64,000 bases of DNA from Candidatus Methanoperedens sp. (GTDB lineage: Archaea > Halobacteriota > Methanosarcinia > Methanosarcinales > Methanoperedenaceae): assembly GCA_027460585.1 (NCBI GenBank), contig JAPZAP010000052.1, positions 1-64,000 of the forward strand. The letters are read 5' to 3'. Every line of letters begins with the position of its first letter. Position 1 is the stretch's first letter. The notes below the pieces were generated by a model. It was given only the letters and a program-made list of their open reading frames with translations. It was not told the origin of the DNA and searched no databases. The position numbers were made by a program, and so were the translations under genes. Of the stretch, positions 32,454 through 59,376 are shown one piece after another.

Positions 32454-34304
32454 TTATCGATCCTTCTTAATACCAAGAAAAGGTAATAAAGTTTCTTCAT
32501 TTACAGGTGTGAAGAAAATGCTGCGTACTTTTCTACCCATTTCCATATATCTTGTTTTTTCATTTTGATCTAAATCAAGATATTTTTCAATAGCTTCTAC
32601 CAATTCAGCAGGAGAAAAACATTCGGTAATAATATCCAGATTCAAATTGGCTAATATATTCTGGTTTAATGCTGTTTGTCTTGCAAGAAAGATTACCGGT
32701 ATTCCTTTCGCTGCTGCTTCTACCATAGAACCCGAGTTTGACCCGACCACCATCGAAGCGTGCTCCAGGGCATCTGGTAGATTCCCTTTATAAATAACAA
32801 ACCGTTTCGGCCATTTATATTCGCCAAATGCCTGTATCAATTCTTCATTTTTATAATCAGGATGTGGCTTAATCAAAAGAGGAACATCACCCCTGATTTG
32901 TTCCAATACTTCATTTAATGTTTCCAATAGTTCAACTCCTTCTGCTATATTGAAGGATAGCAGGATAAGAATTTTATCCGGTTCCTGTTTAAAATCATCG
33001 ATTTTTTCTTTAAAAACATGTGAATATCTCAGGGCAGCCGCAGGATAACATGGAATTGTTCTGGTAAAAGCTCTGGCAACCTGGCATTGGTATTGGCTTG
33101 TTTCCAGCAGGATATTAGGGACTAAACCTGCATCAGCCTCGGATTGAGATGGGAAAAGACTTATAAAGTTAGGACTGTGAATAAACATTTGCGCTCCGAT
33201 TATTTCTGAGTGCGGGAAAGCCTTTCTCACCCCGGCTATTAGCCCTTTATCAATGGCCTGGTTCTCATACCAATTTATGATCAGCCCGGGCTGCAAACCG
33301 GATTGTCCAAGCCGTAGGAACAAATGGTATATCAACATGGCTTCCATACCAGAAGTGGTTAATTTGACCTTAAGTTCTTCTTTTAATATATTATCAAGAT
33401 CAAACCCAAGAAATTGTTCCGCCTTGATTTTTTGTTTTAACGTCTTGAAAGGAAAAACCATGACTGAAATATAATCGGAAAATCGCAAGAAATTTTCACG
33501 TAAAATAAAATGGGTTTTGCATTTACGCATTTTTAGATAAATTGAAAAATAGTTATAGCCAAAACCTGATAATACTGGATGAACCAATACACACAACCCT
33601 TTTTTGGACAAAAATTCATGCAGATAAGGGAAATAACGGTCTTTGAATGATCCATTTTCTGAGAAACTGTTATTATGAACATATGTATCTACGATCACAG
33701 GCTGGATAGTATTAATTTTCCTACCTTGATTCATCATACCTGTAATGTATGATGCACATAGGCGAAGTAACATGTTATTCATGAAATTACCTATTTTGAC
33801 GAAATTAGATAACTGATTAAATAAAGTTTTAATCTTAGCGCGGTTGTGGTGCAAAATTTTAATCTTAATATTTTTCCCATACGCCCAGCTTTGTATGTCT
33901 CTGGCAAGACAAATGGATTCTATCACTATTAACTCAGGCATTTTTTCCTGCCTTTCCAATTCATCGAGCATAACCATGTAGCATGAGTACAGGAAAAGGT
34001 TGCTCTCATAAGGATTCCGTGATGAAATAGTGCCAAACCACCACTCTATGTTTTTTCCATAAAGTCTATTCAGGTCATCAATCCACCGAACATGTGGAAG
34101 TCTGATATCATTTGCGATATCATTTAGAAGCCGGACCGTATCGATACGCTTATACTGCTTTCCTAATTCCTGCTCAATATTGCGTCTCTTAAAGAAATCC
34201 TGGCCCAAATAAACCCATGGAATAGGTTCACCACCATGGAACTGATTTTTTATACTTGAAGCATCATCGCATGGAAATGCAAGTACTAAATGATTTTTTA
34301 GCAT
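32454..34304 (-). CDS. Large surface-carbohydrate biosynthesis protein with GT-B-like C-terminus
   Basis: This 616-residue soluble protein has a C-terminal third that looks like a GT-B nucleotide-sugar domain: DVPLLIKPHPDYKNEE, ASMVVGSNSGSMVEAAAKG and IPVIFLARQ, as in CDP-glycerol transferase and sialyltransferase-like families. The N-terminal part has no recognised motif, with WVYLGQDFFKRRNIEQELGK near residue 30. It resembles the family of roughly 600-residue surface-carbohydrate proteins described in spirochaete and Geobacter clusters; this is by memory, not search. Its stop abuts the probable start of the radical SAM gene. Confidence 0.65.
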   Translation of the reverse strand: MLKNHLVLAFPCDDASSIKNQFHGGEPIPWVYLGQDFFKRRNIEQELGKQYKRIDTVRLLNDIANDIRLPHVRWIDDLNRLYGKNIEWWFGTISSRNPYESNLFLYSCYMVMLDELERQEKMPELIVIESICLARDIQSWAYGKNIKIKILHHNRAKIKTLFNQLSNFVKIGNFMNNMLLRLCASYITGMMNQGRKINTIQPVIVDTYVHNNSFSENGSFKDRYFPYLHEFLSKKGLCVLVHPVLSGFGYNYFSIYLKMRKCKTHFILRENFLRFSDYISVMVFPFKTLKQKIKAEQFLGFDLDNILKEELKVKLTTSGMEAMLIYHLFLRLGQSGLQPGLIINWYENQAIDKGLIAGVRKAFPHSEIIGAQMFIHSPNFISLFPSQSEADAGLVPNILLETSQYQCQVARAFTRTIPCYPAAALRYSHVFKEKIDDFKQEPDKILILLSFNIAEGVELLETLNEVLEQIRGDVPLLIKPHPDYKNEELIQAFGEYKWPKRFVIYKGNLPDALEHASMVVGSNSGSMVEAAAKGIPVIFLARQTALNQNILANLNLDIITECFSPAELVEAIEKYLDLDQNEKTRYMEMGRKVRSIFFTPVNEETLLPFLGIKKDR

Positions 34305-34316
34305 ATTATAATTACT

Positions 34317-35012
34317 CTATCTAAGAATTGCTATTATGTTGCAGGGCGCACTATCCACTCCATCTATCTGCCATGGAAGGACTATTAGTGTACATAATCT
34401 TTCTTGCGTCACGATATCAAGTTTCATATCCTCAATCAATAACAATGGCTTCCCAAAACCAGTTTTTTCAACAAATGCGGCTCTATGCGCTTCTCGCCCT
34501 TCGTTCCTGTACTGGAATGAGGAGATAGAGATGCTATCGATCCCAATACAACGAATGGAGGGATATTCCTCGCGTATCCATCGAATTGTTTCCGGGGCTA
34601 TTCCTGGATTATCGGTCCTATACCTTTTTTCATTCCTGAATCGCCCGAATCCCGTACGCAGAAGTAGGCAATCGCTCATTTGAAGCTGATAAGAAACAGT
34701 TCTAAGATCATCCCGTGATATCAGTTCAGCGCCTTCCTTCGGGCAATCAACTATAGCAGGATGGTTGAATATTAGCTCATCTAACGCGTATCCTGTGATT
34801 AGTTTACCCTTATCCACAAAATGCCTGGGGGCATCTATGTGAGTTCCAGTATGATTAAATAAAGATATGGTATAACTGTTGCTTGTATCGCCGTTTGCGA
34901 TCTGGCTGAACGGAATTAACACGGGTCCTGGAGCACTTCCATACATGGGTGTGGCTGCATTTATCGGATATGATAGAATCTCATATCTTGGAGCTGAGTT
35001 CATAAAAATCAT
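34317..35012 (-). CDS. Cyclase-family metal-dependent hydrolase (kynurenine formamidase-like)
   Basis: This 231-residue protein has the family signature NHTGTHIDAPRHF (HxGTHxDxPxHF, metal ligands), VDCPKEGAELISRDDL and a GIDSISISSFQ segment followed by HRAAFVEK. Members include arylformamidases and enzymes acting on cyclic substrates. It is an unusual component of a sugar cluster and could open or close a lactone, lactam or formamide on the sugar made by this gene run. It overlaps the HAD gene by up to 32 bp; ATG at 35003 is an alternative start. Confidence 0.85.
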   Translation of the reverse strand: MIFMNSAPRYEILSYPINAATPMYGSAPGPVLIPFSQIANGDTSNSYTISLFNHTGTHIDAPRHFVDKGKLITGYALDELIFNHPAIVDCPKEGAELISRDDLRTVSYQLQMSDCLLLRTGFGRFRNEKRYRTDNPGIAPETIRWIREEYPSIRCIGIDSISISSFQYRNEGREAHRAAFVEKTGFGKPLLLIEDMKLDIVTQERLCTLIVLPWQIDGVDSAPCNIIAILR

Positions 35013-35631
35013 GTATATTTGGAACAGGAAGTTCCAATAATGGATTATTCAATTGATCATTAATTCTTGCTAAAAATGGTACCTTTGCCTTATCAGCTTC
35101 TCTGTAATCGGTTATTGTATCCCCAACAAATATAACTTCTTCCTTTTTCAGTTTCTCGCTCTTGAGAATATGCGTTATTATTTCTGATTTTGTGGCAGGA
35201 CTTCCGTATATCCCTCTGAAATATCCTGATATGCCGCGGGCATCCACAATGGTTCGCAATTCCTCTTCCGGCGTCCCTGAAGCAATGAATAACCTCGAAT
35301 TTTTTGATCTTTCCCTGATAAACTCAAGCGCTCCGGGAACGTAAGGGCATTTTTTCACTTCTTCGACAACAAGTTCTGAAAATTTTTCTCCAAGCTGTTT
35401 TGATGTCGCTTCATCAAATGGCTTTTTCAATATATTTCTATAAATATGTTCGAATTTCTTATACCTTGACACTCCTCCATTTTGTTGATGATATTCGACG
35501 ATTTCATCCACATGAACAGGGTATATTTTGAATAGCTCCCGAAATGCCTGCGTCTTTATATCAAAGGACTCAATAATGACCCCATCAAAATCAAAAATTA
35601 TTGCCTTGACCATAACGCTCTTACTCATCAT
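34981..35631 (-). CDS. HAD-superfamily phosphatase
   Basis: This 216-residue HAD hydrolase has motif I IIFDFDGVIIES, motif II LFIASGTPEEEL, Lys in SEKLKKEEVIFVGDTITDYREA (motifs III/IV). A cap domain lies between motifs I and II (about 20-85), as in phosphoglycolate phosphatase/beta-phosphoglucomutase types. In this run it is the best candidate to dephosphorylate a sugar-acid phosphate before CMP activation, the role KdsC plays in Kdo synthesis, though it is not a capless KdsC. The ATG at 35613 (MVKAIIFDF) is an alternative start. Confidence 0.85.
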   Translation of the reverse strand: MMSKSVMVKAIIFDFDGVIIESFDIKTQAFRELFKIYPVHVDEIVEYHQQNGGVSRYKKFEHIYRNILKKPFDEATSKQLGEKFSELVVEEVKKCPYVPGALEFIRERSKNSRLFIASGTPEEELRTIVDARGISGYFRGIYGSPATKSEIITHILKSEKLKKEEVIFVGDTITDYREADKAKVPFLARINDQLNNPLLELPVPNIHDFYELSSKI

Positions 35632-36529
35632 TTATAAGCAAACCACTGATCTCTTTATAATGATGATGTTTTTTATAAATCTCATCAAGGCACTGCAATA
35701 GCCCCTGACCCATATCGAGATAATATTTGCTCACGTATTTTTTTGCAATCTTCGGGCTGAATGAGTAAGGCGTGATTTCATAATGAAGCTTGGATTTTGC
35801 AGGCAGGAATTCCATATCTATGCGGTTTCCAAGGATCTCATTGATCATTTTCATCATTTCTTTGATCTTCATCCGCTGATAACCTGTGATAATAACATAT
35901 TCATTTTCAAATTCATTTGACAGGATGTCAACGCTGCATCTTGCTGCATCCTCGACATGTACATACTCTCTCAATTCTTCACCATCGCCATATCGTGTCA
36001 TCCTGCCTTCGGTGATTGCCTGTTTCAATGTTCTATATATCCAGTTATCTTCACCGGCCCTGGGGCCATACAGGGAACCATATCTCAGGATTGTGTATGG
36101 CAGCCCGTATTCTTCAAAATAATTCTCTATTATCAGTTCGCATGCCTGTTTGCTGCATCTGTATATCGATCCTGTCTTGCTGTAAACATATAGGCTGCTT
36201 GCAAAAACAAACCTTTTTATATTGTTTTCCCTGCAAGCATCCAGAATGATAGTATTTCCCAGAATATTTAACTCAACTGTCTCTACAGGCTTTTCTTTTG
36301 CTTTTTCAATATCAGCCATCCCTGCGAAATTATACACTACATCGCAGCCTGAAATTGCATTTTGTACTGCAATTTTATCCATTATATTCCCCTGGATCAT
36401 TTCCTGCCCTGTTTTCAGATAAGGAGAAGGCTTCATGTCAAAGATGGCCACTTCATAACCCGCCTTCAAAATTGCATCTGCCACATGGCTTCCGAGAAAC
36501 CCGGAACCGCCAAAAACTATTGCTTTCAT
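35621..36529 (-). CDS. NAD-dependent sugar epimerase/dehydratase
   Basis: This 302-residue extended SDR opens MKAIVFGGSGFLGSHVADAI, with FAGMADIEKAKEKPVETVELN, FVFASSLYVYSKTGSIYRCSKQA (the catalytic Tyr-Lys pair YRCSK) and LREYVHVEDAARCSV. The substrate sugar nucleotide is not predictable. It overlaps the HAD gene and the dehydrogenase gene (4 bp), in the same run as the KdsB-like and aldolase genes. Confidence 0.85.
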   Translation of the reverse strand: MKAIVFGGSGFLGSHVADAILKAGYEVAIFDMKPSPYLKTGQEMIQGNIMDKIAVQNAISGCDVVYNFAGMADIEKAKEKPVETVELNILGNTIILDACRENNIKRFVFASSLYVYSKTGSIYRCSKQACELIIENYFEEYGLPYTILRYGSLYGPRAGEDNWIYRTLKQAITEGRMTRYGDGEELREYVHVEDAARCSVDILSNEFENEYVIITGYQRMKIKEMMKMINEILGNRIDMEFLPAKSKLHYEITPYSFSPKIAKKYVSKYYLDMGQGLLQCLDEIYKKHHHYKEISGLLINDE

Positions 36530-37455
36530 AAACCCAACTCCTTAAGGGCATTTATAAGATTATTTACTGTCTCCAGTTCCATCTGTTTTCGCGTTTCTAC
36601 AGCTGATGAGCCCATATGGCTTGTGAGAACAACATTATCAAATTCCGTCAAAGGACCTTTGTATGGCTCCTTTTCAAAAGTATCGATTGCAGCGCCGTTT
36701 ATGAGACCATTTCTTAGAGCCTCCACGAGCGCTCCCTCGTCTATCAGGCCACCCCTTGAAGTATTTATTATTATAGCCTCTTTTTTCATCAAAGATAATT
36801 CCTTTTTTCCGATTATATGAATGGTCTTATCTGATAAAGGCAGGTGCAGGGAAACGACATCGCTATGGGAAAGAACCTCATCCAATGGTGCGAGAGTTAT
36901 TTTATTCAAAGAGATATAATCATGATCCGGATAAGGCTCGTATGCATATACTTTCATCTCGAATGGTTGCAGAAGCTTCACGACCTTTTTGCCAATTCTT
37001 CCAAGGCCGATAATACCCAGAGTCTTGTCATACAGAAGTTTACCCATTAGCTGTGACCAGTTGTTCTTTCTTAGATTCCTATCGGCCTCATTCACCCTCC
37101 TGCAAAGGTTCAGCATCAGGGCAAGTGTAAGTTCAGCAACTGCCTGGGATGGAGCTTCGGGTGTGCTCCTGACGATGACCCCCAGTTTCTTTGCAGCCTC
37201 AAGATCGATATTGTCCAGCCCGACACCGTATCTGGATATTACTTTTAACTTTGGTGCTTTTTTCAGTAAGTCTGCTGTAATCTTCTCTGTTCCGGCGATC
37301 AGGCCTACAGCATCCTTTATTAATCCCTCAAACTCTTCGAACTCAAGTTTCCTGCCGTATGGATTCAGGACTGGCTTATATCCATTTTGTTCAAGAATTT
37401 CCATAGGATCTCGATTTATCTTTCCAAACGAAGCGCTTGAAATCAGAATTTTCAT
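36526..37455 (-). CDS. D-2-hydroxyacid dehydrogenase (SerA-like)
   Basis: This protein of about 309 residues has the NAD-binding loop GIIGLGRIGKKVVKLL and catalytic Arg in INTSRGGLIDEGALVEAL, Glu in AIDTFEKEP and His in VVLTSHMGSSAVE. It lacks the C-terminal ACT domain of long SerA proteins. It interconverts a 2-keto acid and a D-2-hydroxy acid. In this run it may act on the ulosonic acid or on a 3-carbon precursor. A TTG at 37467 overlaps the radical SAM stop; the ATG at 37455 is taken. Confidence 0.88.
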   Translation of the reverse strand: MKILISSASFGKINRDPMEILEQNGYKPVLNPYGRKLEFEEFEGLIKDAVGLIAGTEKITADLLKKAPKLKVISRYGVGLDNIDLEAAKKLGVIVRSTPEAPSQAVAELTLALMLNLCRRVNEADRNLRKNNWSQLMGKLLYDKTLGIIGLGRIGKKVVKLLQPFEMKVYAYEPYPDHDYISLNKITLAPLDEVLSHSDVVSLHLPLSDKTIHIIGKKELSLMKKEAIIINTSRGGLIDEGALVEALRNGLINGAAIDTFEKEPYKGPLTEFDNVVLTSHMGSSAVETRKQMELETVNNLINALKELGL

Positions 37456-37460
37456 ATAAC

Positions 37461-38951
37461 CTACCAATATTTTTCAGCGTATTCTTGCGCCATCATTGCA
37501 AACATCCTGTTACCTTCTTCTGTAAACTTCTCGGCGATTTTTATATCATCAAATCTGCTTTTTGGCATTTTGATGTATAACGGGAAAGTTCTCAATAAAC
37601 CTCGTATTGATTCTTTTGATAACTGGGGCATATCAAGGGCCGGATAGACGATCGAATGCGTTTCTACATTTTCAGTAATATATCCTTTTTTGAGGGCTGT
37701 TTCTTTCAAAACAGTTCCGTGATAAGGTACAAAAATAAATGCGCTGATGCTATCAGCATGGATTTTCCGGTTTAGATTTATCGTGTCGAAAACCATTTCA
37801 CGGGTCTCATCCGGAAAACCGATAATGTTATTTACGGTAATTGGTATTTTATATTTTTTCAATATATTAAAAGCATTAATTACCTGCATATTTGTGAAAG
37901 GCTTGTTCAGCACCTTTTTCCGGAATTCCTCGTTTCCATGTTCAAGTCCGATGGATATCCTGTCGCATCCCATCCTTTCAAGCCTGCTGATCTTAAAATC
38001 GGATATAGTTTCTATTCTTGATTGACACCAGAAAGGGATTTTTATCTCTTCAATATATCTCCTGGCAAATTCATCAAATTTTGCATCGGGCATTGCAAGG
38101 AACGTCTCAGAATTGAAAAATATGTATTCGGCCTTGTAACGGTCAATATAATATTTCATCTCATCAATAATCCTGTCAAGGGATTTCATTCTATAATAAT
38201 TACAACCCGTTTCTTTTTTGTATAATGCCCTCAGGTGAGGCGCTGCGCAGAACTGGCAGCTGTAAGGACAACCCCTATCGATCTCGACTGGGACCATCCT
38301 GAAAACTTTTCCCTGCATTGGCCTGAAGAACCGTTTTTCTTCAAACATGGAAAAGTCGTTGTAAGGGATTTTATCCAGATCTACAAGTTTCCTCATGCCA
38401 TTTTTAATAATTGTTCCATCTTTTTTAGACCAGATATTCTTTATGTTCTCAACTGGGATTCCATCTTCCAGATGCTTGCACAGCTCAGGTAATGCTTCTT
38501 CCCCCTCCCCACAGCAGATATAATCTATCTCATCATGCGATAAAACACCAGCTGGTGAAAAAATGACGTGCACTCCGCCTGCACAAACAGGAATATCAAT
38601 ATCCGAAATATTCTTTAATAATTCGATGGCCAGATGTAATGTGTCATCTACTATCGTTATCGCTATAAGATCAGGTTTATAACTCTCAACTTTTTTCCTG
38701 AAGTCATCATATACATCCGTATCTTTGTAATGGAGACCGAATTTTGACAGGTCAAAGGGCCGGAGTTGTAATATTTCAACTCTTTGTTCATCTATACTCT
38801 TTTGCTCAGTTTTATAAAATGTAGTATCAAATATATCCACATCGAATCCCTTTTGTTTAAGAGATGCACTCAGTATGGAGATGTTGCTTGGAAGCAGATT
38901 GATCATCTGGAGATTCGGGTAAACAAGTAATACTTTGAATTTATCAGACAT
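37461..38951 (-). CDS. B12-binding radical SAM protein
   Basis: With the ATG at 38951 (preceded by GAGG 8 bp upstream) the protein has 496 residues. The cobalamin domain includes KVLLVYPNLQMINLLPSN, AGGVHVIFSPAGVL and ICCGEGEEALPELC. The radical SAM motif is CPYSCQFC, at residues 228, 232 and 235. A C-terminal helical region follows. It is more divergent than the other three in the window and may have a different substrate. It is embedded in the ulosonate-like run, suggesting modification of that sugar. Confidence 0.87.
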   Translation of the reverse strand: MSDKFKVLLVYPNLQMINLLPSNISILSASLKQKGFDVDIFDTTFYKTEQKSIDEQRVEILQLRPFDLSKFGLHYKDTDVYDDFRKKVESYKPDLIAITIVDDTLHLAIELLKNISDIDIPVCAGGVHVIFSPAGVLSHDEIDYICCGEGEEALPELCKHLEDGIPVENIKNIWSKKDGTIIKNGMRKLVDLDKIPYNDFSMFEEKRFFRPMQGKVFRMVPVEIDRGCPYSCQFCAAPHLRALYKKETGCNYYRMKSLDRIIDEMKYYIDRYKAEYIFFNSETFLAMPDAKFDEFARRYIEEIKIPFWCQSRIETISDFKISRLERMGCDRISIGLEHGNEEFRKKVLNKPFTNMQVINAFNILKKYKIPITVNNIIGFPDETREMVFDTINLNRKIHADSISAFIFVPYHGTVLKETALKKGYITENVETHSIVYPALDMPQLSKESIRGLLRTFPLYIKMPKSRFDDIKIAEKFTEEGNRMFAMMAQEYAEKYW

Positions 38952-38965
38952 TTGATTTTCCTCAG

Positions 38966-39799
38966 TTACCAATCCCTGTATAGACTGCTCCATATATTAT
39001 CCCTTTTCAAAATAACGCCATAGAATCCTTCATAATCGTTCATTTTCCATAAGTATTTCATTAAATACAGAATATTTCTTTTGGGATATTGATAATAAAT
39101 TTTCTCGGATACGATATCCCATCCAGAATGCTTAAAGATAAGCTTCCAGTCTTCTGGCGAGAATTCAAAAATATGTGTATTCTCAGCTGACATGTTTTTC
39201 TTGATATTTTGCCTGATGTGATGCAATGCTACCCTGCTCTTCCTGACAAAAGGCACACTGACAACGAAATACTGGCAGCTTGTTTTTTCAGAAAGCTGAT
39301 GCAAGAATTTTATCGGATCCGTAAGATGCTCCAACATTTCAAAAGAAAGAAAAATATCTGCATTGATGGAATGCGTGTGAAGGTCTTCTGCCCTTGAAAA
39401 AACCGCTTCAAGACCTTTGGTTTTTATCTTATTTACAGCGGTATTATCAAGATTGACGCTTATGCATCGTATATTTTCATGAATATTCTTAATATATTGT
39501 ATATGGGTTCCTGACGAATCACCAATATCAACGACAGTGAGCGGGATCTTGTTTGCCAGGGATATCGCCTCATTTGTAAGGGACATCTGGAAAGAGTGCA
39601 TTCCCCTTACATTTGTAACCAGGTATCTGGTGTCCAGTTTGAAGCATGAATACTGATCCGAAATATCAGGTACGATTTTTTCAAGCCGCATGAATAAACT
39701 GGAAAGATTCTGTTCTGCTAATGCAGATCTCAATGATTTTAAATACAAAGCATTAAAAACATCAGAACGAAAATCAGAAAAAATATTTTTAATCTTCAT
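38966..39799 (-). CDS. SAM-dependent methyltransferase (class I)
   Basis: This 277-residue protein has a weak motif I, LTVVDIGDSSGTHIQYI, followed by CISVNLDN and FLSFEMLEHLTDP, the usual Rossmann methyltransferase order. No further family can be named. It overlaps the KdsB-like gene by 11 bp, so it is translated with it. It may methylate a sugar of the glycan. Confidence 0.75.
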   Translation of the reverse strand: MKIKNIFSDFRSDVFNALYLKSLRSALAEQNLSSLFMRLEKIVPDISDQYSCFKLDTRYLVTNVRGMHSFQMSLTNEAISLANKIPLTVVDIGDSSGTHIQYIKNIHENIRCISVNLDNTAVNKIKTKGLEAVFSRAEDLHTHSINADIFLSFEMLEHLTDPIKFLHQLSEKTSCQYFVVSVPFVRKSRVALHHIRQNIKKNMSAENTHIFEFSPEDWKLIFKHSGWDIVSEKIYYQYPKRNILYLMKYLWKMNDYEGFYGVILKRDNIWSSLYRDW

Positions 39800-40559
39800 A
39801 ATCCGATACTAATTTATCCTCAGCCATCAAATCTTCAACGACTTTTAGATCTTCCGGGGTATCCACACTATATGTAATAACCTCTGTCGGAACCATTTTC
39901 ACTCTGTATCCATGTTCCATCGCCCTTAACATATCCACGGATTCAACGATTTCAAGCGGAGTTGGTTCAAGATTATTGAACTTGATTAGGAAATCCCTTG
40001 CAAAAGGAATTATGCAGACCTGCTTGTTCATAGGAATATCTTTCGCACCTTTTTTCCTTGATGGGATTGGCTCTCTAGAAAAGTACATGGCAAAATTCTC
40101 CCTGTCCACCACGACCTTCACTTCGTTTGGGTCTTCGTGCTCTTCCCTGTCCATCAGCGGCGCCATGAGATTCACACAAACAATAGATGGATCATCAAGC
40201 ATGGGCTTGATGGCATCATCGATCATCTCAGGTGTAAGCATGGGTTCATCTCCCTGGATGTTTACAACAATATCCAATTTCGTTTTCATCTGCTTTTCTA
40301 TCTTTAAGGCCGCTTCTGCGACCCTGTCAGTCCCTCTCTCATGACTACTTGATGTCATAATCGCCTTTCCCCCGATGGATTCGACATAATCATAAATCTC
40401 CTTATCACATGTCGCTACATAAACCTCATCAAGCAATTTGCTCATCTTTGATCTCATAAGGACATGCCCAACCATTGGTATGCCGCATATCTTTGCCAGT
40501 GGTTTTCCTGGAAATCGACTCGATGACATACGGGCGGGAATAATACCTGCGATTTTCAT
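39789..40559 (-). CDS. KdsB-like CMP-sugar acid cytidylyltransferase
   Basis: This 256-residue protein begins MKIAGIIPARMSSSRFPGKP and has GIPMVGHVLMRS, VYVATCDKEIYDYVES, SSHERGTDRVAEAA and VVNIQGDEPMLTPEMID, the CMP-Kdo synthetase signatures. It activates a 3-deoxy-2-ulosonic acid with CTP. Kdo itself is rare in archaea, and no KdsA is visible. The HpcH/HpaI aldolase at the head of this run is the likely source of the keto-deoxy acid. It overlaps the methyltransferase genes on both sides (11 and 4 bp). Confidence 0.88.
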   Translation of the reverse strand: MKIAGIIPARMSSSRFPGKPLAKICGIPMVGHVLMRSKMSKLLDEVYVATCDKEIYDYVESIGGKAIMTSSSHERGTDRVAEAALKIEKQMKTKLDIVVNIQGDEPMLTPEMIDDAIKPMLDDPSIVCVNLMAPLMDREEHEDPNEVKVVVDRENFAMYFSREPIPSRKKGAKDIPMNKQVCIIPFARDFLIKFNNLEPTPLEIVESVDMLRAMEHGYRVKMVPTEVITYSVDTPEDLKVVEDLMAEDKLVSDYED

Positions 40560-41512
40560 TCTGACACCTTCTTTTTGAAGAATCCTCTCATTAGATCGCC
40601 CTGCATAGAATCGTCCAGGAGTTTCTGGAGCTCATTTATATGTGAAAGGTTAATAGTGTTGCCTAATTCAAGCCTGTTCAAAGTACTGATATCCAGACCA
40701 TTGGAAATTATCTCAACAGGTGAAAAACCAGCCTTTTCTGTAATCTCTTTGAAACTTCTTAAGGAAAAAAGCATCAAGTGCCTATCCCCTTCGATGATCC
40801 TGTCAACTGATTTCAATGTTCTTTCATAATACCTTACAAGTACAGAATCCGCAGAAGGGACTTCAAGAACAAGTAATCCATCATCATTCAGTAGTTCATA
40901 AGCCTTTTCAAGTACTTTCCTGGGTTCGAAGAAATGTTCCAGTACGCCCCAGAGCATTATGAGGTCGTATTTTTCTGAAGAATCAAAGTCAAAGATGCTT
41001 TTATTAACGATCTTAAGACCAAACTCTGTTCTTGAATAGTTAGCCGCAAATTCATTGAATTCGATACCAAGTGAATCCCATCCTCTCTCCTTGAATACGC
41101 TTAGCACTTCACCCAGCCCAGACCCTATATCCATCACATTTCCGGGTTTATCAAAAAATCGCATTATCTGGTTATACTTATTCACTGCAAGCACATTTCG
41201 CCTGTAATCTATTGATGGAATGAGTTTGATCTTATAAAACTCAGTATAATCTTTTTCATTATAAAGGTCATGAGCAAATGACTCTTTAAATCTTGGATTC
41301 ACATAGACCATTTGGCAGTTTTTGCATCTCACATGTGTGAATCGGTTGACTGGGAATGAATTTGATATCTCTGAACTGCCGCAGTTGTAGCAGCTAGTTT
41401 CTTCAAAGTATTTTGAGATCGGTTTTCCGTTCACAAAATATTTCTCCAGTATTTTGTTAAAATAAATATGAAGTTTATCGATATTCTGATTTATCTTTTT
41501 TTCATCGATCAT
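40556..41512 (-). CDS. Class I methyltransferase with N-terminal Cys cluster
   Basis: This 318-residue protein has a putative zinc ribbon SCYNCGSSE and RCKNCQMVYVNPRF (about residues 40-75), then motif I VMDIGSGLGEVLSVFKERG, GIEFNEFAANY and LWGVLEHFFEPR. This is the layout of many sugar C- or O-methyltransferases in polysaccharide clusters. It starts with a TAATG overlap behind the aldolase gene. The acceptor is unknown. Confidence 0.85.
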   Translation of the reverse strand: MIDEKKINQNIDKLHIYFNKILEKYFVNGKPISKYFEETSCYNCGSSEISNSFPVNRFTHVRCKNCQMVYVNPRFKESFAHDLYNEKDYTEFYKIKLIPSIDYRRNVLAVNKYNQIMRFFDKPGNVMDIGSGLGEVLSVFKERGWDSLGIEFNEFAANYSRTEFGLKIVNKSIFDFDSSEKYDLIMLWGVLEHFFEPRKVLEKAYELLNDDGLLVLEVPSADSVLVRYYERTLKSVDRIIEGDRHLMLFSLRSFKEITEKAGFSPVEIISNGLDISTLNRLELGNTINLSHINELQKLLDDSMQGDLMRGFFKKKVSE

Positions 41513-42279
41513 TACAATCCTTCTCTCAATGATTTTAGCTGTTCTCTACAGGATGTTCCCAGGAATAATGAATCCAGACTGAAAGCTATGAACGTGTATC
41601 CTTTTTTGGTGCTCTCAATGACGAGTCGATAATCCGGCTGTATAACATGCATTCCAAGAGGGACTTTCATTTTCTTGCATACTTGCTCCACTCGTTTTAA
41701 GGCCGCAAGCACATCTGGATGCGTGAAATTTCCAGGTACTCCCAGGGATCCTGATAAATCATATGGTCCTATTATACAGCCGTCCACTCCATCCACAGAG
41801 AGAATCGATTCAAGGTTTCGAACAGATTCGATATGTTCCACCTGGACGATCACTACCGACTGTTCATTAACAGTTGCAGCATAATCATCAAAATCAAAAC
41901 CATATCCCTGCGCTCTTGCCAGCCCCACGCCGCGCGTGCCGAATGGTGGATATTTTACAGCTTTTACCGCCGCTTGCGCTTGTTCCCTGGTATTGACCAT
42001 CGGCACAATAACACCATATGCGCCCGCATCCATTACCCGCTTGATCAGGTTCGGGTTGTTCTCGCCCACCCTTACGAGTGGAACTACTCCTTTACTCTCG
42101 ATAACCTGAATCATTTGTTGGACGACGTCGAGTGTGATTACACTGTGCTCGATATCGATTGTAAGCCACTCAAAACCGGATTGGGCCATTATTTCCGGGA
42201 TATTGTTGTTAGCAAGAGTTATCCAGCTTCCTACGGTCAATTCATTTTTTTTTAATTTATTTTTTAGTGGATTTAGCAT
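41512..42279 (-). CDS. HpcH/HpaI-family pyruvate aldolase
   Basis: This 255-residue TIM-barrel class II aldolase has TVGSWITLANNNIPEIMAQS, WLTIDIEHSV, VPLVRVGENNP, AGAYGVIVPMVNT, TRGVGLARAQGYG and the metal-pyruvate residues in VQVEHIESVRNL and GCIIGPYDLSGSLG. Family members join or split pyruvate and an aldehyde to form 2-keto-3-deoxy acids. It is first in the minus-strand run that ends at 34317 and precedes the KdsB-like gene, so it may build, not degrade, a ulosonic acid. Confidence 0.87.
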   Translation of the reverse strand: MLNPLKNKLKKNELTVGSWITLANNNIPEIMAQSGFEWLTIDIEHSVITLDVVQQMIQVIESKGVVPLVRVGENNPNLIKRVMDAGAYGVIVPMVNTREQAQAAVKAVKYPPFGTRGVGLARAQGYGFDFDDYAATVNEQSVVIVQVEHIESVRNLESILSVDGVDGCIIGPYDLSGSLGVPGNFTHPDVLAALKRVEQVCKKMKVPLGMHVIQPDYRLVIESTKKGYTFIAFSLDSLFLGTSCREQLKSLREGL

Positions 42280-52579: not shown

Positions 52580-53590
52580 TCACTTCCTAAAATAACCCTT
52601 AATAATCTTTACTATCCTATCTGCTCCTTTTGCATCTATCAATTGTTTTGCATTCTTGCTTAAAAGCATTCTGTTTTTATGATCATTAATCAGATTATGA
52701 ACTGTATCTAGGACCGCTTCTTTATTTATTTTATCATATACACCAAAATTAATGGCAGCGTTAGTTTGTGCAAAAAACTCACATTCTGTGTTCTGGTCTT
52801 CGTTCTGGCATATGATGATGGCAGGAGTACCTACCGCACAGATTTCATACAGCATTGTTCCACCGCTGATCATAGCCAAGTCTGCTTCATCGATCAATTC
52901 ATCTATGTTATTTGCATTTATTTTGATCTTAATATTTTTATGTTCTTCAACGCTTTTTATTAATTCATTTTTGTAAGGATAAAGCATTCCGATAACTACG
53001 TTTGTATCGATTTCGATCTCTTTGATTATATTCACGATCTTCCCGGTGATATTATTGTTATCGCCCCCCCCAAAACACAGGAATAAAGATTCCACTTTTT
53101 CTTTTATCCGTTTCTTTTTTCCCGCATATTTTTCAAAAGCTTTTTTCAGAATCACATATTCTGCGCCGCTATAATATTGCGTCCCTGAAGAATATGCATG
53201 TTGTGTGCATGGGTTAAGGTTGGGATTTATCAGGATATCCGAATAAAATAAGGTCTTCGAACAATCGTCTATACTTACAACGATACAACCATTTTCTTTT
53301 AATGCGTGTATATATTGTTCTGGAATATTGGGAATATCCGTAATGATAATAGATTTATTTAGACACTTTTTATAATGTTTTATTTCCTCGACCATGCTAA
53401 CGGATAAAGGCAGGTCGATTGATCCATAACCACAGCTCCTGACACGGTCGCTTACGGCATTACTGGATGTAATGAAAGTTATGTCCATATCAGGTGCTAA
53501 ATCTTTTAATTTTTCTGCAAGTGCAAGGCAGCGCACTAAATGCCCCATTCCGAGTTCCGGCGCGGCTTTAACCCTGAAGAAAATATTCAT
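52580..53590 (-). CDS. pseG: PseG/SpsG-like UDP-sugar hydrolase
   Basis: The start at 53590 gives 336 residues beginning MNIFFRVKAAPELGMGHLVR. GMGHLVRCLALA is the PseG signature, with the conserved catalytic His. SLFLCFGGGDNNNITG and LAMISGGTMLYEICAVGTPAIII complete the GT-B-like fold. PseG removes UDP from UDP-2,4-diacetamido-2,4,6-trideoxy-L-altrose before condensation with PEP. It lacks the GNAT domain fused in some PseG/PseH proteins. It is next to SpsF- and NeuB-like genes, in the order known from Bacillus spsEFG. Confidence 0.88.
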   Translation of the reverse strand: MNIFFRVKAAPELGMGHLVRCLALAEKLKDLAPDMDITFITSSNAVSDRVRSCGYGSIDLPLSVSMVEEIKHYKKCLNKSIIITDIPNIPEQYIHALKENGCIVVSIDDCSKTLFYSDILINPNLNPCTQHAYSSGTQYYSGAEYVILKKAFEKYAGKKKRIKEKVESLFLCFGGGDNNNITGKIVNIIKEIEIDTNVVIGMLYPYKNELIKSVEEHKNIKIKINANNIDELIDEADLAMISGGTMLYEICAVGTPAIIICQNEDQNTECEFFAQTNAAINFGVYDKINKEAVLDTVHNLINDHKNRMLLSKNAKQLIDAKGADRIVKIIKGYFRK

Positions 53591-53594
53591 CCTG

Positions 53595-54326
53595 TCAACC
53601 TGTTTTTTGTTTGACATGCCGGTTTATTTCTGCAATTTCCGGATTCTCATCCAGGAAACTAATAATATCTTCCGAATTGAAATCCATCCGCGGTAAAAAG
53701 TGATTATATATATCCCTGACCACTTTGAGATCATCCAGCTCATCGACGCATAATCGGTAATCCCTTCGTTCTTTCATGGGGGATTTTTCAATACGGATAT
53801 TGAATTTATCCGGATTTTCAGTTATATATGTCATGACATGTTCCCTATAATATGTCTGGTCTTTGCCAGTATCTCTAAAACATTTTTTCAGGGCAGAATT
53901 ACTGATAAATTCAACATCACCCAGACCTCTCGGATAACCCTCAATAAAAATATAATCTGATCCCGGATATTCTTCATAAATATCCATTATTTTATTGATT
54001 ACTCCCGGATCTATTAAGGGACAATCTGCGGTGATCCTGATAACGGCACTGGCATTATAAAGCTTTGTAGCCTGTACGAACCTGGATAATACATCGGATT
54101 CATCACCATGGAAACAATCAACCTTACATGCCTGTGATACGAATCCAACTATATTATCCACCGGCATTTCAGTTGTAGCTACAACGATTTTTTCTAGTCT
54201 GCTCAATGATACTCTTTTGATCACATAATATAAAAGCGGATTACCTGCTATGGGAGCTACAACCTTTGCGGGGAGCCTTGAAGAATCCATCCTTGCCTGG
54301 ATAATACAGATAATATCATTTCTCAT
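53595..54326 (-). CDS. spsF: SpsF/PseF-like cytidylyltransferase
   Basis: This 243-residue protein starts MRNDIICIIQARMDSSRLPA and has VVATTEMPVDN, GDESDVLSRF and RITADCPLIDPGVI, features of the SpsF branch of CMP-sugar-acid synthetases. It would activate the nonulosonic acid made by NeuB with CTP. It starts in an ATGA overlap with the aminotransferase gene and ends next to PseG. Confidence 0.86.
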   Translation of the reverse strand: MRNDIICIIQARMDSSRLPAKVVAPIAGNPLLYYVIKRVSLSRLEKIVVATTEMPVDNIVGFVSQACKVDCFHGDESDVLSRFVQATKLYNASAVIRITADCPLIDPGVINKIMDIYEEYPGSDYIFIEGYPRGLGDVEFISNSALKKCFRDTGKDQTYYREHVMTYITENPDKFNIRIEKSPMKERRDYRLCVDELDDLKVVRDIYNHFLPRMDFNSEDIISFLDENPEIAEINRHVKQKTG

Positions 54327-55441
54327 AAACCGTCCTTCAAAGAATCCTTAAAACAATTAATTAGAAATTCAATCTCATTATCCGTTAATGAAGGATACAG
54401 CGGTACCGAAACCAGATGACTCATTGCATGTTCTGTCATGGGATATTTTTCCATCTTCCCTGATTTATAATAGTAGTGCAGCGGTGGGTACACACCCCGC
54501 CCGCCTTCAATACCATGCCTTAATAAGTATGCAAGTACATCTGTCGGATTTTTTTCCTTTAAATATACCATATATCTGAAAAATATATTGGGCTTATAAG
54601 ACGGGTCGGGCAGATCTATGCTTTCAATGGAAAGCAGCTCATCATTATATAATTTTGCCAATTCTTTTCTTCTTTTTATGAATTGTTTGATCTTCTTTAA
54701 TTGTGATATACCCAGTGCAGCATTCACTCCACTCATTTTATAATTATATCGTTCTTCAAAAGGATAGGTTGTACTTTTCTCAAACCTTAAAAATGGTTGT
54801 TCATAAGCATAGTCTGCCAGATATCTAATCCTGTCCAATGTATCTTTTGTGTTCGTAAGTATCATTCCCCCTTCACCGCATGCAAGCACTTTGGATTCGT
54901 GAAACGAAACTATTGAGATTGTTCCGAAGCTGCCCACGTTACGATCTTTATATACCGATCCTATGGCCTGTGTAGCATCTTCAATAACAGGTATCCCGGA
55001 ATCAATGATCTTATCTATTCGGGCAGGAGAACCAAAAAGGTGGGGCACGATTATTGCTTTTGTTCTTTTTGTAGTCCTCCTTGCAACATCTTCCGCGTCC
55101 ATGTTGTATTCCATGCGCTCCACATCAAAATCAATATCAGCAAAAACAGGTGTTGCCTGGACATAGTGTATCGCCTGCAATAATGAGATACAAGTGTACG
55201 AAGGGAGGATAACCTCGTCCCCTTTTTTCACATTTAACGCCCGTAATGCCAGATGGAGTGCCGCGGTTCCTGAATTTGTAGCAACTCCTCCCTCCACCCC
55301 GATATAACGGGCAAAATCTTCTTCAAATCTCCGGGCCAGTTTACCATATGAAAATTCTTTTTCAGATACTGCAAGTATCGTACTTTTTACGTCATCATCT
55401 TCTATCGTAGCTCTTACGAGAGGTATTTTGATATCCACCAT
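54323..55441 (-). CDS. DegT/DnrJ-type sugar aminotransferase (SpsC-like)
   Basis: This 372-residue PLP enzyme has ATNSGTAALHLALRALN, VIEDATQAIGS and the PLP-binding Lys in SFHESKVLACGEGGM. It lies between NeuB- and SpsF-type genes. A second DegT protein (57288-58421) is more PseC-like, so this one may aminate another position or sugar. The ATG at 55441 is taken; a GTG at 55450 overlaps the neuB stop. Confidence 0.88.
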   Translation of the reverse strand: MVDIKIPLVRATIEDDDVKSTILAVSEKEFSYGKLARRFEEDFARYIGVEGGVATNSGTAALHLALRALNVKKGDEVILPSYTCISLLQAIHYVQATPVFADIDFDVERMEYNMDAEDVARRTTKRTKAIIVPHLFGSPARIDKIIDSGIPVIEDATQAIGSVYKDRNVGSFGTISIVSFHESKVLACGEGGMILTNTKDTLDRIRYLADYAYEQPFLRFEKSTTYPFEERYNYKMSGVNAALGISQLKKIKQFIKRRKELAKLYNDELLSIESIDLPDPSYKPNIFFRYMVYLKEKNPTDVLAYLLRHGIEGGRGVYPPLHYYYKSGKMEKYPMTEHAMSHLVSVPLYPSLTDNEIEFLINCFKDSLKDGL

Positions 55442-55442
55442 T

Positions 55443-56564
55443 TCAGCCACCGTTCAATAGATCTTCCCATACGATACCTCTGCCGTATGATATATCCCTG
55501 TTCACTATTTTTCCCATAACCAATTTATAAAATCTCGGATGTATCCCGGCATTTAAATTTCTCTCAGATCTGAGTACCCTGATATTTTCATTTGACAATA
55601 TTTCTCCTTTTTTAATATTACGGATCGCATGAATGCTTCGCTTATCATTAGGATAAATATCACACTCTGAAGGAGCTATGATTTTCCTATAAATCCCTAA
55701 CACGGTATCAAGATTCTTCCTGCCGATCAGGTTTTGTGCATAAGCCAACCTGTCTTTGGTTTTTTCAACGTTCCTGATCTCTCGTACCATTTTCTTTAAT
55801 TCCAGGGGTTCCAATGCAAAAAAATGATCCGGGCCATCAAGTTTTTTAGATAATGTAAAATGCTTTTCTATAACATTGACATGAATGGCCGCTGCAGATA
55901 CCGGCGCAATTATCGGGTCCAATGTATGATCAGAAAAACCTACAGGAAGGTCAAATGCCTGCTTTAAGGTTTTTAGGACATTAAGATTACAATCTTCAAT
56001 GGGTGTGGGATATGCTGACACACAGTGAAGCAAAACAACATCTTTGTTCCCCCGGTCATAACAGGTGTCTATTGCTTCTTCTATATCTCCGAGCTTACTA
56101 ATGCCGGCTGACATTATAATAGGTTTTTTTTTCTTTGCAAGATATTCTAATAAAGGTATATGATTCAATTCAGGTGATGCGAGTTTATGTGCTTTGATAC
56201 CGATATTTTCCAGAGATTCGGCAGATTCTTCATCAAAACAGGAACATAAAAAAACCAGTGATTTTTTCTCGGAGTATTCTTTCAGAATTCCTAACCATTC
56301 TAGAGGAAGTTCCATTTTTTTTAAAATATCAAAAAAATCAACTTTGGCATTTTGCATCTCGATAAAACCGCAATTTTCAGGATAGAGCATTTCCGCTTTG
56401 AATAGCTGGAACTTTACCGCATCCGCCTCTGCATCTGCTGCAGCATCAATGAGCTTTTTTGCCTGCCCTAAATTACCGTTATGATTTGAGCCTGCTTCTG
56501 CGATAATAAATGTTGGTTCACCATCACCAATGTATTTAGCACCAATTTTGATTTTCCGCATCAT
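55443..56564 (-). CDS. neuB: NeuB/PseI-type nonulosonate synthase
   Basis: This 373-residue protein condenses a 6-carbon amino sugar with PEP to a 9-carbon sialic-acid-like acid. The TIM barrel has FIIAEAGSNHNGNLGQAKKLIDAA, KFQLFKAEML, LASPELNHIPLL, IMSAGISKLGDIEEA and GFSDHTLD, with a metal-binding His. The C-terminal SAF domain (about 300-370) has KRSIHAIRNIKKGEIL. Pseudaminate versus other nonulosonate specificity cannot be told by eye; PseB/PseC/PseG neighbours favour pseudaminate-like. Confidence 0.93.
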   Translation of the reverse strand: MMRKIKIGAKYIGDGEPTFIIAEAGSNHNGNLGQAKKLIDAAADAEADAVKFQLFKAEMLYPENCGFIEMQNAKVDFFDILKKMELPLEWLGILKEYSEKKSLVFLCSCFDEESAESLENIGIKAHKLASPELNHIPLLEYLAKKKKPIIMSAGISKLGDIEEAIDTCYDRGNKDVVLLHCVSAYPTPIEDCNLNVLKTLKQAFDLPVGFSDHTLDPIIAPVSAAAIHVNVIEKHFTLSKKLDGPDHFFALEPLELKKMVREIRNVEKTKDRLAYAQNLIGRKNLDTVLGIYRKIIAPSECDIYPNDKRSIHAIRNIKKGEILSNENIRVLRSERNLNAGIHPRFYKLVMGKIVNRDISYGRGIVWEDLLNGG

Positions 56565-57256
56565 TGCACCTGTTTCTCAACTATTATTATCCAGTCGGAA
56601 TTCTTCTTTTGCGAATTTGAAAAAGTAGTTTCAGTTTTTTCCACATTAATTATGTTAAATTGGCAAAATATTTCATTTATTTCATCTCTGTCCAGAAAGT
56701 GATTTATCATGCCTTTTTCATTTGTATCTTCGATGTCTAATATATATGTATTTTTCTCCAATTTCCTGCCTTTGCCGAACCTGTAATCATCATCAGTCCT
56801 TGTAAAAATAAGCGCTTTTCCTCCTTTTTTTAGCATTCGGTACATTTCTGATACTGCGTTTTTATAACTTTCCAGGTTAGCATAGTAAAATACGCCAAAT
56901 GAAATTATTCCGTCAAAAAAATTATCGGGAAATGGTTGTTTTTCCATATCCGCCTGATACAATGTTGCAGTTAATTTCTTATCAGCGACATCTTTTCTTA
57001 AGTGAATCAACCCCTCTTCTGAAAAATCCGTGGCATATGTTCCAAATCCTTCCTGTGCGAGGAAAATAGTATGCCTGCCTGCGCCACAACCCAGGTCCAG
57101 TATCTTTATATTTTTACGTTTATCAAATTCTCGTGGAAATTGGGTGAATATGAATCTAACACAATGCTCACTTGGATATTTAGGTCGAAATCTTTCGCTG
57201 GAATGCAAGTTATCCCATTTGTTTTCTTTTCCGGCCATGTTTTTCATAAATATCAT
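56561..57256 (-). CDS. SAM-dependent methyltransferase (class I)
   Basis: This 231-residue protein has KILDLGCGAGRHTIFLAQEG, ATDFSEEGLIHL and DGIISFGVFYYANLESYKNA, the Methyltransf_11/25 layout. It overlaps the neuB gene by 4 bp and so belongs to the nonulosonate run. A Met at 57238 (MAGKENKWDN) is an alternative start. Confidence 0.86.
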   Translation of the reverse strand: MIFMKNMAGKENKWDNLHSSERFRPKYPSEHCVRFIFTQFPREFDKRKNIKILDLGCGAGRHTIFLAQEGFGTYATDFSEEGLIHLRKDVADKKLTATLYQADMEKQPFPDNFFDGIISFGVFYYANLESYKNAVSEMYRMLKKGGKALIFTRTDDDYRFGKGRKLEKNTYILDIEDTNEKGMINHFLDRDEINEIFCQFNIINVEKTETTFSNSQKKNSDWIIIVEKQVQ

Positions 57257-57287
57257 AATACAAATTTTGAAGTTGTTTTACTGAATA

Positions 57288-58421
57288 TTAAATTTGATAA
57301 CTTTTTATTTTATCATATACATAACGTATGCTTTCTTCATCCATCCTAGGATATAGAGGTAGGGTAATTATCTTCTTAAAAACCTCTTCTGTATTTGGAA
57401 AATCTTTTGGATCCAGACCAAATACATTCCTGTAATAACTATGCTTGTATGCTGGTATATAATGAACATTTACTCCTATATTTTCAGTCCTCATGTAATT
57501 AAAAAAATCATTACGATTTACAGGTTCATCTAGTAAGATAGTATAAATATGCCATGCATGCCTAACATTCCCTTTTATCGCAGGCAGACGGATAAAATCA
57601 ACATTTTTGAAAAATTCATCATACGTCCTAGCAAGTTCATTTCGCTTCTGTATAAATCGATCCAGTTTCTTCAATTGCGAAATCCCAAGAGCCGCCTGGA
57701 AATCAGTAATCCTGTAATTTCTTCCGAGATACTTCATATCATACGCCCATGAAGCACTAGGCCCATATCTATCCATTGCGTTCTTATCAATCCCGTGGGT
57801 TCTCAGGAGAGATAATTTTTCATATAATTCTGTATGGTTCGTCGCAACAGCTCCCCCTTCACCTGTAGTTATATGCTTAACAGGATGGAAACTGAAAATT
57901 GTGAGATCCGCAAAATTCCCTATTTTCTTATTATCATATTCTGCACCCAATGCGTGGCAGGCATCCTCGATCAGATACAAATCAAACTCATCCGCAATTT
58001 CTTTTATCTCTTTTATATCGCATGGCTGCCCTGCATAATCCACGTAAATTATAGCCTTTGTATTTTTTGTGATCTTTCTTCGGATATCTTCCGGATCTAT
58101 GTTGAAAGTATCACTACATATATCTGCAAAAATGGGTTTGTGATTATTATAAATTATGGAATTTGACGTAGCCACAAACGTAAAAGGTGTAGTAATTATC
58201 TCGCTTCCAACTGGCAGATCAAGTGACTGGACCGCAATATCAAGCGCGCTTGTCCCGCTATTGACGGCAACACAATATTTGCATCCAATATATGCACAAA
58301 GCGCATCTTCAAATTCTTTTATCTTTGGACCTGTTGTGATCCAGTTACTTCTTAATACATTAGCAACTTCATTAATATCTTCTTCGTCGATCCAGTGCAT
58401 CCCATATGGTATAAAATCCAT
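57288..58421 (-). CDS. pseC: PseC-like UDP-sugar aminotransferase
   Basis: This 377-residue DegT enzyme has AVNSGTSALDIAVQSLD, LIEDACHALGAEYDNKKIG and SFHPVKHITTGEGGAV with the PLP Lys, the PseC form. It would aminate C4 of UDP-4-keto-6-deoxy-L-AltNAc from PseB. The start at 58421 overlaps the epimerase stop by one base (TAATG); an upstream ATG at 58448 is less likely. Confidence 0.87.
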   Translation of the reverse strand: MDFIPYGMHWIDEEDINEVANVLRSNWITTGPKIKEFEDALCAYIGCKYCVAVNSGTSALDIAVQSLDLPVGSEIITTPFTFVATSNSIIYNNHKPIFADICSDTFNIDPEDIRRKITKNTKAIIYVDYAGQPCDIKEIKEIADEFDLYLIEDACHALGAEYDNKKIGNFADLTIFSFHPVKHITTGEGGAVATNHTELYEKLSLLRTHGIDKNAMDRYGPSASWAYDMKYLGRNYRITDFQAALGISQLKKLDRFIQKRNELARTYDEFFKNVDFIRLPAIKGNVRHAWHIYTILLDEPVNRNDFFNYMRTENIGVNVHYIPAYKHSYYRNVFGLDPKDFPNTEEVFKKIITLPLYPRMDEESIRYVYDKIKSYQI

Positions 58422-59362
58422 TATTTTTCCACCGATTTCTTCATCCAATATTGTGTTTTACTGATCCCTTCTCTAAGTGAGTTGATTGGTTCCCATCCCA
58501 ACAACTTTCTGGTTTTTGAATGATCACATAAGAGTTTTGGTATCTCGCTTTGCGGATGTATATGCTTGATATTCCGGATTTTTCCTTTATCCTTACAGAT
58601 GAGTCCAGCGAGTTCATTTATTGTGATATCCTCACCAAGTCCTGCATTCAAGATCTCACCATTAACTGCATTTGAATACGAAGCCTGCACAACAAATTTT
58701 GCGCAATCTTCGACATACATTAAATCTCTAGTTTGCATTCCATCCCCATAAATATTGAGTATATCGCCTTTTAAATTTTTATGTATGAAAATGGAAACTA
58801 CTCCCCCCTCTCCGGTTGCCTTTTGATAAGGGCCGTATGTATTAAAGGGGCGCAGAATCACCGTAGGCAGACCATATGCGTGATAATAGGACTGTGTCAT
58901 GTTTTCTCCCGCAAGTTTTGCACCAGCATATGGTGATGCCGCTTTTGTCGGATGTGTTTCCGATATTGCACCATCCATTGATGCCTTGTCATACACCATG
59001 CATGTACTCATGAACACGAATTTAGTATTATGTTTTCTTGCTTCTTCCAGGACATTGAATGTGCCAATAACATCATTTTCAAAAGTTTTTCTTGGGTTGT
59101 CGATACTCTCTTGGACGATAATGCTGGCAGCCAGATGTATACAAATATCAAAATTATTATTAAATAATTCAGATAAGAGTCCTGAATCTTTAATGTCGCC
59201 TATTTTCACATAAAGATTGGAATTATTCCTGAACTCCTTAAGATTCTCTTCACTTCCATTTGAAAGGTCATCTATGATCCATACTTGATTACCATCATCA
59301 AGTAAAAGTTTGACTACCCATCTGCCTATGAAACCAGCGCCGCCTGTTACCAATATATTCAT
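58421..59362 (-). CDS. NAD-dependent sugar epimerase/dehydratase
   Basis: This 313-residue extended SDR has LVTGGAGFIGRWVVKLLLDDG, HLAASIIVQESIDNP and MSTCMVYDKASM with SPYAGAKLAGE, where the Tyr-Lys pair is YAGAK. ILRPFNTYGPYQKATGEGG suggests a UDP-glucose 4-epimerase-like enzyme. It lies between PseB and PseC genes but is not part of the known pathway; it may supply another sugar. Confidence 0.86.
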   Translation of the reverse strand: MNILVTGGAGFIGRWVVKLLLDDGNQVWIIDDLSNGSEENLKEFRNNSNLYVKIGDIKDSGLLSELFNNNFDICIHLAASIIVQESIDNPRKTFENDVIGTFNVLEEARKHNTKFVFMSTCMVYDKASMDGAISETHPTKAASPYAGAKLAGENMTQSYYHAYGLPTVILRPFNTYGPYQKATGEGGVVSIFIHKNLKGDILNIYGDGMQTRDLMYVEDCAKFVVQASYSNAVNGEILNAGLGEDITINELAGLICKDKGKIRNIKHIHPQSEIPKLLCDHSKTRKLLGWEPINSLREGISKTQYWMKKSVEK

Positions 59363-59376
59363 TTCACACCTTTGGA

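Follow-up and report, generated by a model that had tools for sequence, protein, structure and literature searches.

A candidate aldolase-based cassette for a CMP-activated 2-ulosonic acid in Candidatus Methanoperedens and its relatives

We describe a run of ten genes in the first 64,000 nucleotides of contig JAPZAP010000052.1 (hereafter the window) of Candidatus Methanoperedens sp. (assembly GCA_027460585.1; 2.47 Mb, 84% complete), in which a class II aldolase of the HpcH/HpaI type (Ald) is encoded near a KdsB-type cytidine monophosphate (CMP) transferase. From sequence comparisons we consider it probable that the run serves specifically to make and CMP-activate a 2-ulosonic acid destined for a surface or S-layer glycan, with the aldolase as the enzyme that makes the acid. 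In the established biosynthesis of CMP-Kdo and of CMP-nonulosonic acids, as far as we know, the acid is built from phosphoenolpyruvate (PEP) by KdsA or NeuB. CMP activation of a 2-ulosonic acid is known, and the aldolase way of making the acid is apparently undescribed; we found no account of an aldolase-to-CMP-transferase route in the titles and abstract openings of the literature searched, although coverage was incomplete and this is not proof.

A ten-gene run with an aldolase and a KdsB-type transferase

The ten genes lie on the minus strand at 32454-42279 and form a tightly coupled run as read from their open reading frames (ORFs). Nine of these (34317-42279) overlap or abut, and a first-pass annotation had described them, from the sequence alone, as a coupled run of named families; their coordinates and overlaps are as stated there, and their family identities agree with Pfam and NCBIfam model matches. 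The tenth gene starts 12 bp past the nine-ORF run and is counted as a member. The genes are as follows.

41512-42279, minus: HpcH/HpaI-type class II aldolase (Ald), proposed ulosonic-acid-forming enzyme; PF03328, 123.9 bits (cut-off 25)
40556-41512, minus: S-adenosylmethionine (SAM) methyltransferase MT1 with a cysteine-rich N-terminal stretch; PF13489 (Methyltransf_23), 83.9 bits
39789-40559, minus: KdsB-type CMP-ulosonate cytidylyltransferase; kdsB TIGR00466, 174.7 bits (cut-off 155.2)
38966-39799, minus: SAM methyltransferase MT2; PF13489 (Methyltransf_23), 31.8 bits
37461-38993, minus: B12-binding radical SAM protein; PF02310 and PF04055
36526-37467, minus: D-2-hydroxyacid dehydrogenase (DHG); PF02826/PF00389 (2-Hacid_dh_C, 2-Hacid_dh)
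35621-36529, minus: extended short-chain dehydrogenase/reductase (SDR), sugar epimerase/dehydratase-like; PF01370 (Epimerase), 154.9 bits
34981-35631, minus: haloacid dehalogenase (HAD)-IA phosphatase; PF13419 (HAD_2), 74.0 bits
34317-35012, minus: cyclase-family (kynurenine-formamidase-like) metal hydrolase (Cyc); PF04199, 88.5 bits, metal motif HTGTHIDAPRHF
32454-34304, minus: protein of the GT-B fold, candidate glycosyltransferase; AlphaFold2 model and Foldseek

The assignment of Ald to the HpcH/HpaI family is supported both by its Pfam score and by the presence of the His, Arg and metal-ligand residues, and it is the only such protein found in the 84% complete source genome. Residues H45, R70, E148 and D174 are invariant in twelve CMP-transferase-linked aldolases, with H45 and R70 corresponding to His45 and Arg70 described for HpaI (PMC8560999). 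Ald nonetheless scores below the equivalog cut-offs of HpaI (205.5 vs 368.8 bits), RhmA (174 vs 441 bits) and GarL (170.9 vs 406.75 bits).

The KdsB-type protein departs from canonical KdsBs at specific positions. Across seven aligned canonical KdsBs, of which two are bacterial fragments and five are KdsA-linked archaeal sequences, the G and Y of a G-x-Y motif do not vary, nor does the LEQ of LEQLR, and in window-type KdsBs these are replaced by C-x-I and VDM (CII and VDMLR in the window itself); at the altered positions the KdsBs of genomes G337 and G186 are like those of the window type. The Kdo site of KdsB is located in the C-terminal domain (PMC3149649), and the altered positions in this domain may shape the sugar site. 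Judged by their sequences, both Ald and the KdsB-type transferase look functional.

Linkage of aldolase and CMP-transferase genes

Among 394 sampled genomes of the phylum we found nine other aldolases with at least 44% identity to Ald, and all nine are encoded no more than 2.3 kb from a CMP-transferase gene. Two further aldolases, from the same genus, came from a more complete scan of the order and are likewise linked, so that with the window's own copy 12 of 12 aldolases, which represent four archaeal families, have a CMP-transferase no farther than 2.3 kb away; in the tree these 12 form a single clade (support 98/94). Among the other archaeal aldolases, a CMP-transferase was found near none of 25 loci (in the stretches fetched, a few of which are short), and because of this contrast the association is far above chance. 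The first-pass annotation had proposed a genome-neighbourhood search for co-occurrence of the aldolase with KdsB-like genes, and the comparison lends its core idea strong support.

The identity of the partner varies, being KdsB-like in the window and in genomes G440, G453, G262, G223, G356 and G049, and NeuA/PseF-like in G130, G061, G032, G100 and G212. In G262, G223, G212 and G301 the aldolase gene overlaps the CMP-transferase gene or lies almost directly against it, and most archaeal cassettes also include DHG, the extended SDR, HAD and Cyc, in differing order and orientation; the G049 cassette has no Cyc or extended-SDR match. A second aldolase clade, separate in the tree from that of the window, is paired with KdsB in G023, G301 and viral contig L141, and in G023 and G301 the pair had no match to DHG or SDR next to it. 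At 27 bacterial loci with relatives of Ald there was no CMP-transferase nearby and the contexts are mostly catabolic-looking, although these are weak negatives, as several are cut by contig ends (L001, L003 and L023). On the tree the CMP-transferase label must change seven times or more, and the linkage has therefore been gained or lost several times.

The cassette is not confined to archaea, where the first-pass annotation had placed it, since a plasmid of an alphaproteobacterium carries it too, as do viral contigs. The best plasmid match to Ald is in Acuticoccus sp. I52.16.1, where the operon reads Ald, acylneuraminate cytidylyltransferase, DHG, HAD and SDR. Using the aldolase alignment, we found 61 aldolase loci on IMG/VR viral contigs (L121-L181), many of them beside NeuA-like or KdsB-like genes; on contig L121 the genes for KdsB, DHG, Ald and HAD follow one another and overlap, and a further viral aldolase clade in the tree adjoins NeuA-like genes. 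These loci are possibly phage surface-sugar genes. A single-protein KdsB scan of the viral contigs gave no match, and the matches in named phages were limited to two Staphylococcus phage records, both unannotated (32.6% identity).

A related arrangement is seen on a plasmid of Leisingera caerulea (L185, 4371-7373), where KdsB has a HAD gene on one side and on the other a gene annotated as 'aldolase catalytic domain-containing protein', with no KdsA in the stretch. This aldolase is not homologous to Ald, although it takes the same position beside KdsB, and the run is possibly a second non-PEP route. An HMGL-like aldolase is also present in L090 (3086-4738).

Proposed pathway and alternative explanations

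We propose that an aldol condensation takes the place of the PEP-dependent step of KdsA or NeuB, in which Ald would join a C3 keto acid to a sugar aldehyde or to the corresponding phosphate. The HAD enzyme would strip the phosphate from the product, and the SDR, probably with Cyc, may ready the aldehyde for condensation or modify the acid. The KdsB-type enzyme (NeuA-like in other archaea) would then form the CMP-sugar for use by the GT-B protein as candidate transferase, with MT1, MT2 and the B12 radical SAM protein perhaps decorating the sugar. We infer the direction in which Ald acts, its donor, aldehyde and product, and the roles of HAD, SDR, Cyc, the methyltransferases and the radical SAM protein. 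The roles given to Cyc (lactonase or amidase) and to MT1, MT2 and the radical SAM protein (decoration) are guesses, and none of these four is universal in the cassette.

The C3 donor may be pyruvate, or hydroxypyruvate supplied by DHG. Relatives of DHG interconvert 2-hydroxy and 2-keto acids, and HpcH/HpaI aldolases can catalyze aldol additions in vitro, one of them, SwHKA, with hydroxypyruvate as well (PMC10099721), so DHG may be the source of hydroxypyruvate for Ald, in which case the product would retain an oxygen at C3, as a 3-hydroxy acid. We give a pyruvate-built 3-deoxy acid a little less than an even chance, and suggest the hydroxypyruvate-built acid with oxygen kept at C3 only tentatively. 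A more general proposal, which is speculative and on balance doubtful, is that class II aldolases recruited from catabolism provide a PEP-independent CMP-ulosonate route across archaea, bacteria and viruses, with the DHG-containing form fed by hydroxypyruvate and yielding a 3-hydroxy product. We know of no direct biosynthetic route to CMP-activated 3-hydroxy 2-ulosonic acids.

The first-pass annotation had suggested a possible new archaeal aldolase route to a CMP-activated 3-deoxy-ulosonate. Its core, that an aldolase takes over from the PEP-dependent synthase ahead of CMP activation, has good support from the conserved and repeatedly assembled linkage and from genomes with the aldolase and CMP-transferase in which neither NeuB nor KdsA was found (see below), but other parts are not supported in the form given. 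The route is not specific to archaea, as noted above; the 3-deoxy product presumes a pyruvate donor, and the conserved DHG makes hydroxypyruvate a serious alternative; and the unusual modifications ascribed to the cyclase and B12 radical SAM enzymes are guesses.

The remaining genes of the run recur to differing extents. MT1 has homologues in the KdsB-type loci of G223, G356, G049 and G453 (22-28% identity) and G440 (76%), and a close copy of MT2 (78%) adjoins the cassette in G440, as do copies of the B12 radical SAM protein in G440 (83%) and in G262, G130, G061 and G223 (37-65%). The solved structures nearest to DHG are phosphoglycerate dehydrogenase and glyoxylate reductase; it scores below the phosphoglycerate dehydrogenase cut-off (TIGR01327, 284.3 vs 454 bits), and the linked DHG copies share a GTE/GVE/GIE motif. 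Relatives of the HAD enzyme have a DFDG nucleophile motif. Cyc has the metal motif of the cyclase superfamily in its ORF but is not KynB (TIGR03035, 60.4 vs 223 bits). The tenth gene has no Pfam match and is below the cut-off of TIGR04326 (surface carbohydrate biosynthesis; 44.4 vs 250 bits), and its AlphaFold2 model (predicted local distance difference test 87, predicted template modelling score 0.89) matches GT-B enzymes in Foldseek. These matches are generic rather than specific to CMP-sugar transferases, and we therefore claim no sugar donor for it; its homologues adjoin the cassette in most KdsB-type loci, and we regard it as the candidate glycosyltransferase of the run. The window is a glycan island throughout 18-64 kb. 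An AglB/STT3-like oligosaccharyltransferase with a WWDYG motif is encoded at 15152-17692, which suggests that the island serves protein N-glycosylation.

Whether the CMP-transferase could be supplied by a PEP-dependent synthase was considered genome by genome. The first-pass annotation had noted no such enzyme in its run, and none was found among the ten genes; a KdsA-type synthase (PF00793, DAHP_synth_1) was likewise absent from the source genome, at 84% completeness, and from nine cassette relatives. A NeuB is present, the only one in the window, 13 kb from the run, in a separate pseudaminic-acid-like locus (52580-60429) with PseB-like, PseC, NeuB/PseI, cytidylyltransferase and PseG genes, of which PseC and PseG exceed their equivalog cut-offs. 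Two genes of this locus, both outside the cassette, are relevant.

55443-56564, minus: NeuB/PseI synthase; TIGR03569, 309.7 bits, and TIGR03586, 281.5 bits (below the equivalog cut-offs of both)
53595-54326, minus: cytidylyltransferase; PF02348, 113.9 bits at 53712-54311

In NeuB-bearing genomes generally, NeuB mostly has its own CMP-transferase nearby. Genome-wide searches of G032 (a single contig, the complete chromosome, 99% complete), G100 and G356 found neither NeuB nor KdsA, and each has one clear PF02348 CMP-transferase, which adjoins the aldolase; other matches in G032 and G100 are weak. Neither synthase was found in G301, although the Ald-KdsB pair is present. As a positive control, the KdsBs of G207, G091, G060 and G114 adjoin KdsA, without the aldolase. 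We note that KdsC and KdsB appear to be fused in the canonical archaeal Kdo loci L091, L093 and L094 (G060, G167 and G114), where, in KdsB ORFs of about 400-460 amino acids, the KdsB part is preceded by a HAD stretch resembling KdsC.

Several observations weigh against an aldolase-made acid. A simple route from pyruvate through the aldolase would leave DHG without an obvious step, the best NCBIfam equivalogs for Ald name HpcH/HpaI enzymes that are catabolic, and two of the 14 archaeal linked cases (G023 and G301) were found through KdsB, such that linkage there is partly selected. Further, G337, of the same genus, has a window-type KdsB and no match to this aldolase; it carries the DHG-SDR-radical SAM-HAD-Cyc-glycosyltransferase part at 49-77% identity to the window, and the neighbors of its KdsB are other oxidoreductases and a xylose-isomerase-like protein. 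In G186 a window-type KdsB lies near DHG and SDR genes (L087, 9915-13674), and the genome has no HpcH/HpaI match, NeuB or KdsA. The KdsBs of these two genomes may be served by another aldolase or by an oxidative DHG route, and because they pair this KdsB type with no Ald we hold our confidence in the aldolase-fed cassette at probable and no higher. SIS isomerase and transaldolase-like genes are present in the G337 and G049 islands (L098, 12729-14701; L067, 10534-11967), where they probably supply a heptose precursor.

An oxidative route would have the SDR make a lactone, Cyc open it, DHG oxidize C2 of the resulting aldonic acid, and KdsB activate the product, a 2-ulosonic acid that is not 3-deoxy, with the aldolase as an accessory. 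G337 and G186 fit such a scheme, the relatives of DHG include a probable 2-ketogluconate reductase, and DHG is kept in the four-gene viral cassette L121. We nonetheless think it unlikely, given that window-clade aldolases are universally linked to a CMP-transferase and that C2 oxidation of an aldonic acid by DHG is thermodynamically unfavorable; moreover, Ald is beside KdsB in G023, G301, L141 and L161, where DHG cannot be the source of the acid because none was found in the stretch. It is also improbable that the CMP-transferase uses an acid that is scavenged or made by NeuB or KdsA, with the aldolase serving sugar-acid turnover or supply of an acyl substituent. The nearby window NeuB and the catabolic equivalogs of Ald are in keeping with this, but supply by a separate NeuB, which the first-pass annotation had named as fatal to its proposal, is removed in G032, G100, G356 and G301; NeuB is usually paired with a CMP-transferase of its own, the motifs of the linked KdsBs differ from those of KdsA-linked ones, and the aldolase pairing recurs with different partners. 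Finally, the glycan island is a setting in which unrelated sugar genes of a surface polysaccharide could cluster by chance, although this is very improbable as an explanation when Ald is found again and again with CMP-transferase, DHG and HAD, in arrangements that differ in order and orientation and with overlapping genes, in archaea of several families, a bacterial plasmid and viral contigs, and when none of the 25 other archaeal aldolase loci has a CMP-transferase nearby.

Comparison with known pathways

Genome surveys predict ulosonic acids by searching for KdsA- or NeuB-type genes. If the aldolase step operates in vivo, such surveys have missed a set of acidic surface sugars in archaea, bacteria and viruses, and ulosonic acids may be made by organisms now scored as lacking them.

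The proposed cassette resembles the CMP-Kdo pathway (KdsD, KdsA, KdsC and KdsB) in CMP activation of a 2-ulosonic acid by a KdsB-family enzyme with a HAD phosphatase nearby. It differs in that the aldolase is present and no KdsA was found in the source genome, in the type of its HAD enzyme (IA/HAD_2), and in its changed KdsB motifs; canonical KdsA-KdsB loci do occur in other archaea, without the aldolase. The nonulosonic (sialic, legionaminic and pseudaminic) pathways condense PEP with a sugar, as in Halorubrum sp. PV6 (PMC6137143). The cassette shares with these NeuB/LegI/PseI and NeuA/LegF/PseF systems the CMP-ulosonate end, and some cassettes have a NeuA/PseF-like CMP-transferase, but the NeuB-type synthase is not part of the cassette and four genomes with the aldolase and CMP-transferase lack it altogether. 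Ald itself is like HpaI, RhmA/YfaU, GarL and SwHKA in fold family and catalytic residues, although it falls far under the equivalog cut-offs and belongs to a CMP-transferase-linked clade of its own.

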